A stretch of 64,000 bases of DNA, taken from the NCBI RefSeq assembly GCF_932294415.1, contig NC_065535.1, positions 14,279,282 to 14,343,281 of the forward strand, written 5' to 3'. The position numbers were made by a program, and so were the translations under genes. Origin of the DNA: Quercus robur. Taxonomy: Eukaryota; Streptophyta; Magnoliopsida; Fagales; Fagaceae. The notes beneath the pieces are model-generated. The model had not been told where the DNA came from and did no database searches. It was given only the letters and a program-made list of their open reading frames with translations. Within the stretch, counting starts at the first letter, position 1. Every line of letters begins with the position of its first letter. Below, piece after piece: positions 39,121-52,532 of this stretch.

Positions 39121-39235
39121 CATCCAAGAATTAAAATCACACTTCCCCAGCTACATTTCAAAATTGGCGTCGAAATCTTTTACTATTCATCTTCCTCTCA
39201 ACTCTCAACTCAGTCATTCTACAATCACAATCACA

Positions 39236-42200
39236 ATGGGTTCGCTTTGTTTTCTAGATGAACCCTTGCACTACCCTGTTGCTCGCAGAGACGAGTCCGT
39301 CGTCGACGACTACCACGGCGTTAAGATCGCCGACCCTTATCGCTGGTAATCAAATTCATCGAAAATGGGTTTCTCGCTTCACATTTTCCACGAAAATAAA
39401 TATTTCTTAGGATTTCAAGATTTTGTTTTCTATGATTCTTTAATTATGAGCTCAACGAAAAAAAAAAAAAACTTATCCTTCCAAAAATAGAAAAAATAGC
39501 TATAATTTGTATTAAAAAAAAAAAAAAAAAACCCTGATTCATGAGTGAGTGGTTATGTTATGTTAGCACCAGTAGTGATGCTAAAATTGATTGATATAAC
39601 GATCCAAAAAAATCTCAGGCTGGAGGATCCTGACGCAGAGGAAGTGAAAGAGTTTGTGGAAGAGCAGGTGAAATTGACAGAGTCGGTGCTCGAGAAATGC
39701 GAGACGAGAGAGAAGCTTCGCGAGAAGATTACGAAGCTCTATGATCACCCGCGTTATGGCGCGCCTTTTAAGCGTGGAGGCAAGTACTTTTACTTCCACA
39801 ACACTGGCCTCCAAGCCCAGAGCGTCCTCTACGTACAGGTTTGTGAGCTAGAATTGGATTTAGCCATTGTTATTTGGTAAAGAGATGTTCATAATAATTA
39901 TGTGTCTCTGTTTCTTTGTTCAGGATAGTTTGGATGGAGAGCCTGAGGTTTTGCTGGACCCAAATGCGCTTAGTGAAGATGGAACTGTCTCTTTGAGCTC
40001 GCTTTCAATTAGTGAGGATGCTAAATACTTGGCCTATGGGCTTAGTGCTAGCGGTAGCGATTGGGTGACAATTAATGTAATGCGGGTTGAGGATAAGAAA
40101 GTTGAGGCTGATACATTATCATGGGTGAGTATCTTAATCTTAGTACATGTCTTACTATTCCATATAGATAAAAACAAGTTCCTCTTTTTTTTATAAAAAA
40201 AAGAAAAAGAAATTGAGACTTGTTAGAATTATGGTTAAGCGATTTAATCTACCATTTCCTAACCATTTAAACTTTTGGGAGAATTGAATATGTTTATCAT
40301 GGTATCAGAGCTCTGGGAGTCTCAGTCCACACGTGAGAGGGGGTGTTAGAATCATGATTAAGTAATTAAATTCACCATTTATAATAATTTGAGCTTTTAG
40401 GAGAATCGGTAATATATCAAAGACTAATTGAAGGGATTTTATATGTTGTAATTTCAGGTTAAGTTTTCGACTATTAGTTGGACACATGATGGCAAAGGGT
40501 TTTTCTACTGTCGATATCCTGCTCCCAAGTAAGTGATCATCCTCATCGTATTCTTGCATTTTAAAAAAGGAGGAATTACTTGAATCTTTGTAAATTATGA
40601 ACCATGGTAATGATATTGCGTTTGTTTAGACAGGAAAAATTGGATTTAGTGCATCAAATTTGAGATTTCATAGATTATTATATTGAATTCATAATGATAG
40701 TATAATGCTATAGAGAGGGAGAAAATGTAGATGCTGGGACAGAGACCAATTCTAACCTTTATCAGGAGGTATACTATCATTTCTTGGGTTCAGATCAATC
40801 TGAAGATATTTTATGCTGGAGAGATCCTGAAAACCCTAAATACAGGTTCAGAGCCAGTGTTACACATGATGGGAAGGTAATTCTTCTCTCATTTTTTCAT
40901 GGCTTTTATGGTTATGTCGGACCGGTGTCAGCTTCAATTTCTTGCATTGATGTTAATCCAACTGTGTGTTTCTTAACACTCCCTTAAAAAAATGTATAAT
41001 TTCTATGTCTAGTGGCCAAATTTGTTATAGAGAGGTTTTCTTGAGATGATCTGTTATATAATTGAATGCATACCCAAAAAATGAAAAACCTTAAAATCCC
41101 TTTTTGAGTTGTATATGAAGCATCATCATTATACCATGTTGTTGAGTTTCTATACTTGAGCTGCCTCTTCAGTTATGCTTATAAATACAATCCATATGTA
41201 GTATTTATATGCATGCATTAACTAGAATGCCTGATTAATTTGGCTTAGATAAGAAGTGCAAATGCTCTTTCCTCTTTCTTATGGATTTCCTTCTAACTGA
41301 CTCCACTTTGATATTTTTATACAGTATGTTCTCCTGTACATCAAAAAGGATTCTGGCCTTGTCAATAAATTTTATTATTGTGACTTTTCTGATCTTCCTA
41401 ATGGGCTTGTGGGTTTGAAGGGAAAGAAAGCCTTGCTCCCGTTTATTAAGCTTATTGATGAATTTGATGCTTTTTACGATGCCATTGCAAATGATGATAC
41501 TTTGTTTACCTTTCGGACAAATAAAGATGCTCCAAAATATAAGTTAATCCGAGTAGATCTGAAGGAACCAACTGTTTGGACTGATGTTCTCCAAGAAGAC
41601 GAAAAGGATGTACTTGAATCAGCTTGTGCTGTTAATGGTAACCAAATGATTGTGAGTTACCTGAGTGATGTTAAGTATGTTCTACAGACAAGGGACTTGA
41701 AATCAGGTTCCTTTCTACATCAATTACCCATTGACATTGGGACAGTCTATGGGATTTCTGCAAGGCGCACAGACAATGTGGTTTTTATTGGGTTTACTAG
41801 CTTTCTTAGCCCTGGAATTATTTATCAGTGTAATTTAGAAACTGAGGTTCCCAATATGAAGATATTTCGTGAAATTGTTGTTCCTGGGTTTGATCGCTCA
41901 GAGTTCCATGTTGATCAGGTGATACTTGCTGCCTTGTTGACACCCTAGTCACTCTAGTTTCCTTCTTCTTCTTCTACCTTCTTGCCAAGCTGCATTAGTG
42001 TGGATGATTAGGGGCAGCTGTTCTTCTGTCTCTCTTCCTCTGTTCATCTAGGGTGTGTGTTTGAGTCCTTAAATGTGTCCTCATCTTACTTGATTATTTT
42101 TTTCCATCTCCAGGTTTTTGTGCCTAGTAAGGATGGTACCAAGATACCAGTGTTCATTGTGGCAAGAAAGAATATTCTTTTGGATGGATCACACTCTTGT

Positions 42201-45200
42201 TTGTTATATGGATATGGTGGATTTAACATTAGCATTACACCATCATTCAGTGTTGGTCGTATTGTACTCATAAGGCATCTAGGTGCTGTTTTCTGCATAG
42301 CAAACATTCGTGGTGGTGGAGAATATGGAGAGGAATGGCATAAAGCAGGCTCACATGCAAAGAAGCAGAATTGCTTTGATGACTTCATTTCTGCCGCTGA
42401 ATATCTTATATCTTCTGGCTATACCCAACCCAGAAAGTTGTGTATTGAAGGTGGAAGCAATGGTGGGCTTCTTGTTGGGGCTTGCATAAATCAGGTATTG
42501 CTGTGTAGCTTGTAATAGAGGGTGCATTTTCTTAGTCTATAACTTGTAATAGTCGTTTGAGTGCTTAGACTAAATTACAATTTTTTTTGGCAGAGACCTG
42601 ATCTTTTTGGTTGTGCTTTGGCTCATGTTGGTGTTATGGACATGCTGCGATATCATAAGTTTACTATAGGTTAGTCTAAATCCATTGGATCCACTAGTTA
42701 ATATTTTTGAATCATGTATTGAACCAGAGTTGCTTTATAGGCCATTCATGGACTTCTGATTATGGTTGTTCAGACAAGGAGGAAGAATTTTACTGGCTAA
42801 TCAAGTAAGTAAAGTTTGTTCAATAAAAAAAAAGTAAGAAAAGTTTATCCTATATCAAGGACCTGATAGGAAGCTCTTACCATATTTCCTGGCAATCTTT
42901 CAAATCTTTAATTTGTAATTTTCCATTGTACACTGCCAATTAGCTCTAGCTCAATTGGCACTTCCTCCCCTTAGAAAATATAGGTGGTGGTGGGTTCAAG
43001 ACCCATGGGTGCATGTGGAACTTGCCAATAAAAAAAAAAAATCTACCATATGTTGTGTAAGAAACTGGAAAACCATTGTCTATTCTCAATCTTGTAATAT
43101 TGGACAAAAGTTAAATTTATTCATGCCATTCTTTTTTGGCTTGAGAAGATTCATATACCAGAAAAAGCTATACAAGTATCAGATGCAAGAGGCTTGACCA
43201 GAAGGGGAGGGAACTGAGATGAGTAAGGCATAGTAGAAAACCTCATTTTAACTGCCCATTGAGCTCGTTCATGCACTGCACTGTTTACATTCCTACTAAT
43301 CCTACTAAACACACAAGAAATGAAATTTGATTTTAAACTTTTGACATTCAGGCAATACTCCAGCTCAGAGTGGCATCCCCTTCTATCTTCCCTCACTGAT
43401 GTGTCTACATTGATGTTTGTGAAAAGGGCTGTAGATAGAGTAAATTTAGAGGGCTCAACATTGCTTAACTTGGGCTTTTCAGCCATTAGAACACCACAGT
43501 AGCTTGCATGGGCTTTAATTGTGATAATTGGGACTTCCATAATGGTGTTGTAATGTTCTCCATGCATTAGCTGTTCTTGAGTTTCCAAACCGTGTCCAAA
43601 CTCCAATGCAAGCAGAGTGAATTGGTCATTTGGAATTTCTGGGTCAACTAGACCTTCTGGTGGAGATATGAATATTCACTAGTCTTATAATTGTGTTTGT
43701 TTGAATTGCTCCAATTATAAATCCCCACTGGTTCCCCATCCAAGCTAGTCTTATGACTAGGCACATCTCAGATAGGTGCAATTCATCCTCATCTTCCCTA
43801 TGGCAAAGAGGACAGAATGACAATTTACAGGGGCATAACCTGCTTTACTGGTAAGTGTCCAGATACCAACATTCAAAGGAAAACTTTGACCTTTCCTGGG
43901 GTTGGATGCTCCAAATTTTGATCTAAAACCTACCATTTACCCTATCAAATAGCCTACTTTGGTCCACCCAATAAGCTCATTTAATGGAAAAGCATCCCTT
44001 ATTTGTTGGGGATCCGTACTAGGTTATCATTAATAGCTGATAAGGAGATAGAACTTGTAGGATGTGGACCATGTGGTTCACTAGTTAATCCAGTTCATTC
44101 ACTGCCATTCAATTGCTATATGTGATTGCTATCCTTATTTTTATCTCATATGTTCTAGCAGTATCCATATTGATTCTTATTTCTTGATCCAATGATCCAA
44201 CACATCAGTTGTTATTTGCCATGATCATGAGCGTTCACAACAGCTTGGGTTGCATTAGATATCTGTCAATTAGGAATTATTTACCCTTTGTTTTGGACTG
44301 CACCACTTTTGTGCTTTTATTAGATTCACTAAAACAAATATTTTACCTGGTGTTTCTACTAAGCAATTTTCTCTGGAAATATTGTGTTAGGATTCTTCAC
44401 ATAGGAGAGTTTGGATGTTGGCGCACTGTTGATTGTAATTTTTTTTACAGGTATTCTCCACTACATAATATCAGGAGACCTTGGGAACAGCATCTGGATC
44501 TACCTTCCCAGTATCCATCCACAATGTTATTGACTGCTGATCATGATGATAGGGTTGTGCCATTGCACTCATTGAAGTTACTAGCGGTTGGTCTTCTTTA
44601 TCTTTAGCAAAATTTAGAATTCATTAGCCTTTAAAAAAGAAAAAGAAAAAGGAAAACTTGAAGTATAATATTAGAATGATTCTGTGTTATCATGTTGCAT
44701 ATCAGTTCTAGTATTAACAAGGTAGCTGGTGGAACAAGATAAATTATGCATTGTAATTTATTTATTGGTTATGTAACTACTTTTTAGATTTTCTTCAATG
44801 ATGTTTTCATTGTCTTCATTGTTAGCCATAAGTGTATCGTAGTTCTTTTTTTTTGGTTAAAGAGAGGCAATTATACTAAAAGTTAACCCGCTGGAAGTCG
44901 GGTATCAGTTACAAAAGGGCTTCTATTAGCAGTTACATGAGTGCTGTCGTAGGTTAAGACCTCCATAACATATAAGGGAGGAGTTACAAAAGAAACAAAA
45001 AGCTCCATTTGAGCTCGCCCAATTTTTGTAAGAGAATCAGCTGCTCTGTTGGCTTCCCTGAAGCAGTGAAGGAGATGGACCTGTTGGAAAGCTTGGAGAG
45101 TGTCCCTGCAATCATTGACCAAAGGTTGAGTTAGCCTATTAGAGCAGGATGGTGAGGATAGAAGCTTAATGGCTTCAGTGGAGTCCACATTAATTATAAG

Positions 45201-48069: not shown

Positions 48070-51000
48070 ATGTTCACATACACTCGTTACGCCAATGCCA
48101 TTTTCTATTCCCCAACGACTTTCACTTTCTCTCGAAATTCTTGCCGCCTCCAAAGTCTATCTGTATTAATAAGTCACCCCTTCCGTCCACGCAAACAAAA
48201 CCCAAACCCAAACCCAAGGTACCAACGTTACTTCAAATTCAAAGCTTTTCCTTCCTTTTCTTCTTCATCTTCTTCTTCCTCATTTTCCTCAATCCATTCT
48301 TCAATGGGATCGCTTTGTGCCCTAGACGAAACGTTACAGTACCCGGTAGCTCGTAGAGACGAGTCCGTCGTCGATGACTACCACGGCGTTAAAATCTCCG
48401 ACCCTTATCGATGGTAATATTTTGTTCGTGTTTGCGAATAGAATCTTTGAATTTGGGAATAATCAAGGGATTGGAAATGTTGATTTTTTTTTTTTTTTTT
48501 GATTTAATGTTTAGGCTTGAAGATCCTGATGCAGAGGAAGTGAAAGAGTTTGTGCAAAAGCAAGTGAAATTGACAGAATCGGTGCTTGAGAAATGCGAGA
48601 CGAGAGGGAAGCTTCGCGAGAAGATTACGAAGCTCTTTGATCATCCACGTTACGATGCGCCTTTTAGGCGAGGAGACAAGTACTTTTACTTCCACAACAC
48701 TGGCCTCCAAGCCCAAAGCGTCCTCTATGTACAGGTTCGTGAAGCCAGAATTGGATCTAGCAGAGCTATAAATATTATACCATACTATACTATACTATAC
48801 TATATTCTCAAATACATTTCTGTTTTTGAAATAATAACAATTCAGGATAGTTTGGATGGAGAACCTGAGGTTTTGCTGGATCCAAATGCGCTTAGTGAAG
48901 AGGGAACTATAGCTTTGAACACGTATTCGGTTAGTGAAGATGCTAAATACTTGGGTTATGCGCTTAGTGCTAGCGGTAGCGATTGGGTGACAATCAAAGT
49001 AATGCGTGTTGAGGATAAGAAAGTTGAAGCTGATACTATATCATGGGTGGGTATCTTAATCTTAGTACATGTTTTATTCATCCAAATTGGTAAAGCAATT
49101 TACTTTTTGATAAAATCCGAGACAAGGCTAATGGAAGGGATTTCATATATTGTAATTTCAGGTTAAGTTTTCTTCCATTGTTTGGACTCATGATAGCAAA
49201 GGGTTTTTCTACAGCCGATATCCTGCTCCCAAGTAAGTCATCATCATGCTCTTACATTTTTCGCGAAATGTCAAAATTGGAATCCTGATTGATGATTGTG
49301 GGTTTTAAAATTTGCATTTACCAATTTTTAGAAAGAAAAAAGTTTGCCAAAAATCATTGTGTATGTTTGGGCAGGAGAAATTGGATTTATTACATCATTT
49401 CTAAGATTTCATAGATTGTTTATATTGAATCTATAATGGTAGTAGTGTTATGATGTAGAGAGGGAGAAAATGTAGATGCTGGAACGGAGACCAATTCTAA
49501 CCTTAATCATGAGCTATACTATCATTTCTTGGGAACGGATCAGTCGGAAGATATTTTATGTTGGAGAGATCCTGAAAACCCTAAATACACGTTTGGAGCC
49601 AGTGTTACAGATGATGGGAAGGTAACTTATCTCAGTTCTTGGCTTTTCTCGGTTATGTCAGGGTAGGGCCTGCTTTATTGTATTGATATCATTATTAGCA
49701 CTCCAGTCGGACCTACACTCTTCAGTTTATTATTTATTTTTATAAGTTTGTCTCCCTGAGGCAAAAGTAAGAGTTGGAGTTGTTAGAGGATTTATTTTCT
49801 TAATTTGTGTTAGATTTAGCGCAAATTTGTACAGTGAAAGGTAAATTATGGCAATCCAACATCTTGCATTAGACGGCCTTTGTTTACATTATAGAGAGAT
49901 GTTGAAGTGATAATATAAGATACTCTATAGAGGTTTAGTGATATGACCTATAATTGAACTGAAACGAGATTTAAAAAAAAAAAAAAATGGGAGGCTTTAA
50001 ATCCCTCTTGAGTTTTATGAAGCACCAGCATTATTTGCATGCATGACTAATTAATTTGGTTTAGATAAGAAATGCAAATGCCTTATTCCTCCCTGAACTG
50101 ACTTCTCTGTTCTGTTATTTTGCAGTATGTTCTTCTGTACATCGACGAGGGTTGTGACCCTGTGAACAAATTTTATTACTGCGACTTGTCTACCCTTCCT
50201 AATGGGCTTGTAGGTTTGAAGGGGAAAAATGACTTGCTCCCATTTATTAAGCTTGTTGATGACTTTGATGCACAATACCATGAAATTGCAAATGATGACA
50301 CCTTGTTTACTTTCTTGACAAATAAAGATGCTCCAAAATATAAGTTAGTTCGAGTGGATCTGAAGGACCCAACCGTTTGGACTGATGTTATCCAAGAAGC
50401 CGAAAAGGATGTACTTGAATCAGCTCGTGCTGTCAATGGTAACCAAATGATTGTGAGTTACCTGAGTGATGTTAAGTATGTTCTTCAGGTAAGGGACTTG
50501 AAATCAGGTTCCTTGCTACATCAATTACCCATTGACATTGGGTCAGTTAGTGGGATTTCTGCAAGGCGTAAAGATAAAGTGGTCTTTTTTGGTTTTACTA
50601 GCTTTCTTTCCCCTGGTATCATTTATCAGTGCAATTTAGAAACTGAGGTGCCCAGTTTGAAGATATTTCGAGAAACTGTTGTTCCTGGGTTTGATCGCTC
50701 GGAGTTCAATGTTGATCAGGTAATACTTTTTACCTTGTTGACATTCTAGTCACTGTAATTTGTCTCTTCTTCCTTCTTGCCTAGCTGCATTCATTTGGAT
50801 GATTAGGGGCAACTTTTCGTTGTGCCTCTCTATACCTCTGGGGTGTGTGAGCCCTCAAATGTGTGTTTGTCTTGATTGGTTTTTTAATTTCCAGGTTTTT
50901 GTGCCTAGTAAGGATGGTACCAAGATACCAGCGTTCATTGTGGCCAGAAAGAATATTCTATTGGATGGATCACACCCTTGTTTGTTATATGGATATGGTG

Positions 51001-52532
51001 GATTTAACATTAGTCTTACTCCATCATTCAGCGTTGGTCGCCTTGTACTCACAAGGCATCTAGGTGCTGTTTTTTGCATAGCAAACATCCGTGGCGGTGG
51101 GGAGTATGGAGAGGAATGGCATAAAGCAGGCTCACTTGCAAAGAAGCAGAATTGCTTTGATGACTTCATTTCTGTTGGTGAATACCTTATATCTGCTCGT
51201 TATACCCAGCCCAGAAAGTTGTGTATTGAAGGTGGAAGCAATGGTGGGCTTCTTGTTGGGGCTTGTGTGAATCAGGTAATGATGTCTTAGATGGTGCATT
51301 TACTTGATTGTATTCTTGGTTCTATTTCTCGTCTTAGTTATTTTGAGTGCATAGATTAACTGAACTTTCTGTTCTTTGGCAGAGACCTGATCTTTTTGGT
51401 TGTGTGTTGGCTCATGTTGGTGTTATGGACATGCTACGATTCCACAAGTTTACCATAGGTTAGGCTAAATCCTTTGTATCCACTAGGTAGCATTTTTTAA
51501 TCATGTATTGATCTAGAGTTGCTTTCTAGGCCATGCGTGGACTTCTGATTTTGGTTGTTCAGAGAAGGAGGAAGAATTCCATTGGATAATCAAGTGAGTA
51601 AAGTTTTGTCTATGTTAAATTTGATGTGAAGCTCTTACTTTACTTCATGGTAATGCTTCCCATATTTAATTCATAATTTTCATATGTTAGCTCACTGTTG
51701 ATCTTTATTTTCTTTCTTTAGGTATTCTCCACTGCATAATGTCAAGAGACCTTGGGAACAGCACCCGGATCAACCAACCCAATACCCACCCATAATGTTA
51801 TTGACCGCTGATCATGATGATAGGGTTGTGCCTTTGCATTCATTGAAGTTATTGGCGGTTAGTCTCTTTATCATTAGCTCCCCCGCACCCCGCACCCCCT
51901 TCCCTCTTTTTTTTTAAATAACTTCTAATTACTGTTAGAATGCTTCTACGTTATCATGTTACATATTATTATTGTTCTAGTATTAGTTGGTGTATAAGAT
52001 ATATTACATTTTGTTATTTATTTGTTTGCTGGCTATGTAATTACTTTTTAGATTTCCTTCAACAGTGTTATATTGTTGGTCATAAGTGCAACTGCGTGCA
52101 TATGAAAGGGCAATACTTGAATGTAGCTGTCGTTTTGCCTATCCTCTCCTCAAACTACTGGAATTTGTAACTATGTTATTAGTCATTGCATATGTGCACT
52201 GCACGGGTGTTATTTTATGTTCTTTTTCCTTGTTTGACAGTTTTTTTTCTATGTATTGTCAGACCATGCAGTATCTTCTGTGCACAAGCTTAGAGAAGAG
52301 CCCCCAGACCAATCCTATTATCGGTCGCATTGAGTGTAAGGCAGGACATGGAGCTGGACGTCCTACACAGAAATTGGTAATCTTTTTACTATATTTGTTC
52401 CCCTAAAGTGGTTCTTATGTTATTGCCGGGTGGTTAATTATCAGTCATTTGCTCTTCTACGTACAGATTGATGAAGCTGCTGATCGGTATGGTTTTATGG
52501 CTAAGATGTTGGATGCATCATGGACTGACTAA
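48070..52532 (+). CDS. POP: Prolyl oligopeptidase, copy B, with putative transit peptide
   Basis: Serine peptidase of family S9A, tandem paralogue of the gene at 39236 on the same strand. Exons: 48070-48413 (conserved ATG at 48304), 48515-48734, 48846-49046, 49162-49232, 49459-49621, 50126-50719, 50895-51275, 51383-51458, 51530-51593, 51722-51857, 52263-52376, 52467-52532. Every exon has the same length as in copy A, giving 731 residues from 48304, or 809 from 48070. Catalytic motifs [25 protein letters not shown] and KAGHGAGRP are intact. The 78-residue extension has no Asp or Glu, many Ser, Arg, Lys and Phe, and a poly-Ser stretch, as in chloroplast or mitochondrial transit peptides; whether translation starts there is not known. 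One difference is Cys for Gly before KAGHGAG (IECKAGH). Confidence 0.95.

Follow-up and report, generated by a model that had tools for sequence, protein, structure and literature searches.

A shortened member of an abundant TRIM family of about 282 bp in intron 3 of a tandem prolyl oligopeptidase gene

SMART TRIMs are described, on the basis of BLASTN searches and Southern blots, as restricted to the grasses; their solo LTRs are given as 79 to 87 bp long in O. brachyantha and 77.5 bp on average in sorghum, and Table 4 of the same paper contains small RNAs that match SMARTs perfectly (PMC3281118). The smallest TRIM of a 2016 survey, according to its account, is CcaRetroS9 of pigeon pea, a 233-bp element with 52-bp LTRs that is defined by 10 complete copies (PMC4717578). 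We present here the analysis of an element of about 200 bp at positions 40216 to 40425 of a 64,000-nucleotide stretch of DNA, referred to below as the window. The element is a TRIM, as the preliminary description of this DNA had proposed, with dispersed relatives that share its LTR-PBS-LTR layout and its 5-bp target duplications. It is very probably an old, shortened copy of a high-copy TRIM of about 282 bp, inserted in intron 3 of one gene of a tandem pair, POP-A, after that gene and its neighbor, POP-B, had separated.

POP-A occupies positions 39234 to 42923 of the window and POP-B positions 48302 to 51681. Among known proteins, that of POP-A has matches to peptide cyclase 1 and to prolyl oligopeptidases; its exons matched peptide cyclase 1 (5uw3) better than other solved prolyl oligopeptidases. 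The host intron of the element, intron 3 of POP-A, extends from 40125 to 40457 between exons at 39924 to 40124 and 40458 to 40529, and the parts of the element, this intron, and the corresponding POP-B site are all given on the plus strand.

The anatomy was read directly from the sequence. A 5′ target-site duplication, AGACT (40216 to 40220), is followed by a 79-bp 5′ LTR, TGTTAG...TTATCA (40221 to 40299), whose top match to the LTRs of full-length copies is 88%. The primer-binding site TGGTATCAGAGC adjoins this LTR (40300 to 40311) and is complementary to the 3′ end of initiator tRNA-Met; the exact 12-mer occurs a single time in the whole 64-kb window. A polypurine tract, GAGAGGGGG (40335 to 40343), stands at the matching place in full-length copies and directly precedes the 76-bp 3′ LTR, TGTTAG...ATATCA (40344 to 40419), which no longer has the LTR hairpin found in copies that are less decayed. 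One extra A (40420) separates this LTR from the 3′ target-site duplication, AGACT (40421 to 40425). With the end placed at ...ATCA the flanks differ, and the AGACT pair is exact only once the 3′ end is shifted outward by 1 base. The preliminary description had listed two direct repeats of about 78 bp, a primer site directly after the first, a purine run ahead of the second, and AGACT on either side, and all of these were found, the repeats at 76 to 79 bp. The element has the general form of a TRIM, with two direct terminal repeats, TG...CA ends, and a total length under 1000 bp. The primer-site assignment uses GGATCGAAACC-NN-GCTCTGATA, which we take to be the 3′-end motif of initiator tRNA-Met and the complement of which gives the window primer site; 15 places in the genome match this motif as candidate tRNA genes. 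The CCA end of tRNAs is added after transcription.

The two window repeats share 81% identity across 37 nt without gaps and 78% across 64 nt by BLAST. Their local alignment score is 76, and 2000 dinucleotide shuffles gave a mean of 24 (sd 4.4) and a maximum of 42. One alignment puts the identity of the LTR pair at 72%, and a second has 60 identical bases among 74 aligned, from which it follows that the window copy is old.

Relatives were sought across the genome (785.7 Mb, 42 contigs) with the window element and with a full-length copy of 283 bp (L018) as queries. The search passes over words that are very frequent and assigns scores to none but the top candidates, and its counts are lower bounds. 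The window element had at least 58 matches (best 40 of 729 candidates scored) and L018 at least 43 (best 40 of 2068 candidates scored); among the matches listed for L018, 41 of 43 cover almost the entire 283-bp query. A set of 45 LTR pairs was drawn from loci L001 to L060, including that of the window copy and a pair from an array at L050 (LTR spacing, 79) and excluding places counted repeatedly and loci without two near-complete LTRs 60 to 330 bp apart. At fixed ends, 5-bp target duplications were exact in 19 of the 45 pairs and had no more than one mismatch in 37, versus 0.25% and 3.6%, respectively, when flanks were paired between different copies as a control. The further copies with independent 5-bp duplications for which the preliminary description had suggested a search are therefore present. 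Target duplications in the 4- to 6-bp range of TRIMs thus occur at independent insertions; the window copy, which needs the 1-base 3′ shift, stands outside the 37.

Element length was 278 to 288 bp in 37 of the 45 LTR pairs, and an intact member measures about 282 to 283 bp, made up of LTRs of about 77 bp and an internal region of about 128 bp. That length leaves no room for enzymes. The LTR pair of L040 is 100% identical, so some insertions of the family are recent. Multi-LTR arrays of the family were seen at L008, L058, C3:58144603-58145090, and C40:51909875-51910235; an array was called where an internal end stood directly ahead of an LTR, where a primer site came after one, or where full-length matches overlapped.

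Mobilization in trans would account for these elements. Initiator tRNA-Met may have primed a full-length TRIM RNA, and a separate retrotransposon, presumably of the Copia type, would have supplied the proteins for reverse transcription and integration, the latter leaving the 5-bp duplication. The copy would have reached intron 3 of POP-A once this gene and POP-B had separated, and it would then have decayed and, presumably also after insertion, lost about 82 to 84 bp of the stretch that separates the primer site from the purine tract. An autonomous partner was sought by way of L029, and none was found; the single candidate locus read, L075, had no long open frames in three frames, and L076 had no match to the L018 LTR. 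At L075, positions 530 to 2503 (contig C2) consist of tandem 825-bp units that combine the internal region of the family, an LTR, and another internal stretch behind a further primer site.

The window copy differs from the full-length copies in its interior. The internal length between the LTRs is 44 bp in the window and 128 bp in L018, and the LTR start-to-start spacing is 123 versus 205 in most copies. Alignments to full-length copies place the deletion region at 40311 to 40319, with approximate breakpoints that allow for one or two deletions; the part missing between the primer site and the purine tract amounts to about 82 to 84 bp, comprising the stretch behind the primer site, which elsewhere holds the tRNA-like GTTCGATCC, and the 5′ half of an internal hairpin located ahead of the purine tract. 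A genome query with the deletion junction found only the window copy itself, in a search whose skipping of common words and scoring of best candidates could miss a sibling. As the junction was found nowhere else, the length of about 200 bp belongs to a single damaged copy and not to a mobile element. The statement in the preliminary description that the element lies at the very small end for any LTR retrotransposon did not hold up: most measured members are about 282 bp long, and the tempting claim of a 200-bp LTR retrotransposon gives way to that of one internally deleted copy.

Two simpler readings of this locus were considered. That two repeats and a primer-site motif came together by chance in an AT-rich intron has next to no probability: the intron is low in complexity, and nothing more speaks for it, whereas the repeat alignment beats every one of the 2000 shuffles (76 versus a maximum of 42) and the dispersed copies carry target duplications; this candidate was rejected. 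A mobile miniature subfamily of about 200 bp, which would be the smallest LTR retrotransposon known and would count the window copy as one member, is also highly unlikely. Among the matches listed, six places align over 178 to 200 of the 200 bp (the window copy, L002, L003, L006, L011, and C5:74845786). Roughly the same internal part is absent from L001 and L002; at fixed ends, one mismatch occurs in the 5-bp duplications of L003, L006, and L011; and L002 and L006 are joined on a tree of the family. The list of six, however, came from the window-element search, which is skewed toward copies of about 200 bp because the query itself has that length. The other short copies carry deletions unlike that of the window, and L006 and L011 retain the part lost in L001 and L002, so that L002 and L006, which cluster with support of 96/80, have no deletion in common. 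The exact primer site followed by TGTTAGA after a gap of 100 to 130 gave 91 matches, 76 of which belong to the family as judged from their first 80 letters; with a gap of 22 to 52 there were 10 matches, and only 2 had family LTR pairs, namely, the window copy and C40:38654291, the internal regions of which differ. The window LTRs reach 88% identity with full-length copies and at most 78% and 81% with other short copies (maxima over 78 full-length and 8 short-copy LTRs), although mean identities differ little (0.753 with full-length and 0.747 with short copies for the 5′ LTR; 0.816 and 0.778 for the 3′ LTR). On the tree, built like the LTR comparison from 39 full-length and 5 short copies, the short form needs 4 changes versus 4.9 with shuffled labels, and the well-supported branches are compatible with a single origin of the short copies. 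Weighing the differing deletions, the junction found once only, the 2 versus 76 copies, the LTR matches, and the tree, we conclude that the window copy goes back to a full-length element and underwent its shortening independently, be it before or after integration.

The time of insertion was approached through POP-B. The counterpart site there, GAGACAAGGCTAATGG (49119 to 49134), is uninserted, as the preliminary description had stated, and it exceeds the POP-A flanks, when these are joined, by 5 bp. Right beside the insertion site the POP-A/POP-B alignment has a further 2-bp gap, with POP-B again the longer, so that small indels have occurred in one of the two genes. The Ks between POP-A and POP-B is 0.30 (557 codons), and the K between the window LTRs is 0.22 in one alignment and 0.345 in another (range, 0.22 to 0.35); as these values overlap, dating does not give the order of insertion and duplication. 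Since the element is present in POP-A only and absent from POP-B, an insertion after the duplication is nonetheless likely, or at the least plausible. To this extent the earlier proposal of an insertion after the gene duplication stands, with no help from the overlapping K and Ks values, and the alignment of intron 3 of both paralogues, which had been suggested as a check, yields a POP-B intron that has no insert but a site of unequal length. An 880-bp piece of POP-B with introns lies at C37:50327363-50328242 (L072), is 97.7% identical to POP-B, and represents a recent DNA-level copy of a gene fragment. The element is absent from this fragment as well, which, being so recent a copy of POP-B, is not an independent witness.

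Two further readings concern the history and the transcription of the element. POP-B may once have had the element and lost it, in which case the insertion predates the duplication and the 5 extra bases are a remnant of both target duplications. The POP-B site, GAGAC-AAGGC-TAATGG, does resemble the POP-A flanks GAGAC and AAGAC set side by side, and the LTR K is not clearly below the POP Ks. Even so, we consider such a loss quite unlikely: we know of no precise excision of an LTR element that retains both duplications, recombination between LTRs should have left a solo LTR where the POP-B site has no match to the element, and the simpler account is an indel of 5 bp in an intron of low complexity. 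The other reading assigns the family to the TRIMs that are driven by RNA polymerase III (TRIMp3, e.g., Helenus); its A-box-like motif would be TGGTTAAGT, close to where the LTR starts, and its B box GTTCGATCC, behind the primer site. The B-box consensus is GWTCRANNC. This pattern lies directly behind the primer site in 28 of 39 full-length copies, and TRGYNNAGY lies near LTR positions 9 to 17 in 28 of 39, both being raw counts with no chance control. Published small RNAs of grass SMARTs contain GAGTTCGAATC, the rice one at the matching place (PMC3281118). Against this, about 90 bp separate the two boxes and the B box is outside the LTR, while the tRNA-like sequence of Helenus is described as lying inside the LTR (PMC10886601). 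In L001, L004, L009, and L018, moreover, ARAGORN predicted no tRNA gene and Rfam gave no tRNA or 5S match at E values up to 10. The B-box letters are similar, too, to the complement of the T arm of initiator tRNA (GGATCGAAACC), and extended primer pairing may explain them equally. We therefore regard a polymerase III-driven family as unlikely; the B-box-like string behind the primer site could serve polymerase III transcription or a longer contact with the T arm of the primer tRNA. A functional tRNA, 5S RNA, or other known RNA in these four copies was likewise set aside, the seven Rfam matches (E up to 10) being to unrelated families and all below the gathering scores of those families.

Folding of the element was assessed against shuffles. 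The RNA of the whole element L018 (L018 1501 to 1783, minus strand) has a fold z score of −5.4, in part because its LTR is nearly self-complementary. Each L018 LTR is an imperfect palindrome, able to fold on itself or to pair with the other LTR. Single LTRs gave z scores of −2.0 to −3.1 for L009, L010, L016, and two near-complete L018 stretches, −1.8 for L027, −0.2 for L025, +0.5 for L002, and −0.75 and +2.1 for the window; good folding is lost in several of the more diverged LTRs. Within the genome the LTR hairpin showed no covariation (paired fraction, 0.934 versus 0.933 in column shuffles; 64 distinct ungapped LTRs of 78), as expected for copies that decay after insertion. Across species the self-complementary core compared was CCYA-NN-AGCTTARGCT-TT-TRGG. 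One core pair varies yet still pairs (T-G here, C-G in maize, and T-A in rice), a weak signal judged by eye, and two other L018 stem pairs are not formed in maize or rice. The LTR hairpin was among the readings set aside.

Kinship with the grass SMARTs was judged through 40 distinct published small RNAs rather than full elements, compared with L018 (1 of 41 table rows duplicated the letters of another and was omitted). Their summed score was 764, versus 612 (sd 23; maximum, 704) for 300 shuffles. Twelve of the 40 were equaled by at most 3 of the 300 shuffles, 7 by 6 to 18, and 21 by 70 or more, a level that resembles chance. The 12 strong small RNAs fall at four collinear places and, because their placements overlap, are not independent: 9 lie in the LTR core, 1 at the primer site, 1 just behind it, and 1 at the purine tract and the start of the 3′ LTR. 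At other parts of the L018 LTR and internal region, these published small RNAs had no match above chance. A match at the primer site is expected, because the tRNA is shared; a match in the LTR core is not so expected. In that core, CAGCTTAAGCTTTTGGG of L018 is identical to a maize SMART small RNA (17 of 17 nt), AGTTCGATCCCTGGCT behind the primer site agrees with a rice small RNA at 14 of 16 nt, and GTGAGGGGGAGTGTTAGA at the purine tract and LTR start agrees with a rice small RNA at 17 of 18 nt. A microRNA predicted in grapevine, TAACAACTTAAGCTTTTGGGT (PMC6366190), is identical to the L018 LTR core at 19 of 21 positions.

The host is not a grass, as its plastid contig carries an intact accD along with rbcL and ycf4, and accD is reported to have undergone a single loss that preceded the evolution of the grasses (PMC5472289). 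Among the open papers listed, there was no report of SMART outside the grasses, and the present family may be contained in the 2016 TRIM survey under another name. One paper with the terms SMART and TRIM proved to use them for an author's name and for read trimming, and a loquat paper proved to use SMART for assembly software; both were dismissed.

Compared with other known systems, the family shares with Helenus a tRNA-like B box, placed internally here with only an A-box-like string in the LTR, where Helenus, as described, has its tRNA-like sequence with both A and B boxes within the LTR (PMC10886601). Like Cassandra, it is a small noncoding plant TRIM (PMC4717578, PMC10886601), and it differs from Cassandra, which has 5S rRNA in its LTR, in that L001, L004, L009, and L018 have no 5S match at E values up to 10. 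CcaRetroS9, compared by its published description, is likewise a very small TRIM with short LTRs; its 233 bp are those of the element proper, whereas the 200-bp form in the window is one damaged copy of an element of about 282 bp. The window element is a decayed and shortened, otherwise ordinary member of its family.

The SMARTs offer the nearest parallels in size and structure. The size range of about 260 to 290 bp, with LTRs near 80 bp and 5-bp duplications, is also that of the present family (278 to 288 bp in 37 of 45 pairs), and FRetro129, at 292 bp with 85-bp LTRs (PMC3281118), compares with about 282 bp and LTRs of about 77 bp here. Both are dispersed, with 5-bp duplications and, in many copies, TGT...ACA ends (PMC3281118), and the multi-LTR arrays at L008, L058, and C3:58144603-58145090 are of the kind described for maize SMART (PMC4717578). 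On the evidence of the 40 short RNAs, homology between the family and the grass SMART TRIMs is probable. SMART is reported as confined to grasses and the host here lies outside them, so that either SMART extends further than reported or the present family is a sister to it. A non-grass family of this kind bears on the age of such tiny elements and on the minimum sequence needed for carriage by the proteins of another element. As a tentative possibility, well short of an even chance, SMART may not have been invented in the grasses and may instead form a single branch within a broader TRIM lineage, also present in non-grass flowering plants, in which the self-complementary LTR core, the tRNA-like B box directly behind the primer site, and the purine tract are kept. 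If so, their retention would point to a requirement for RNA structure, or for polymerase III or extended primer pairing, in the mobilization of elements as tiny as these.
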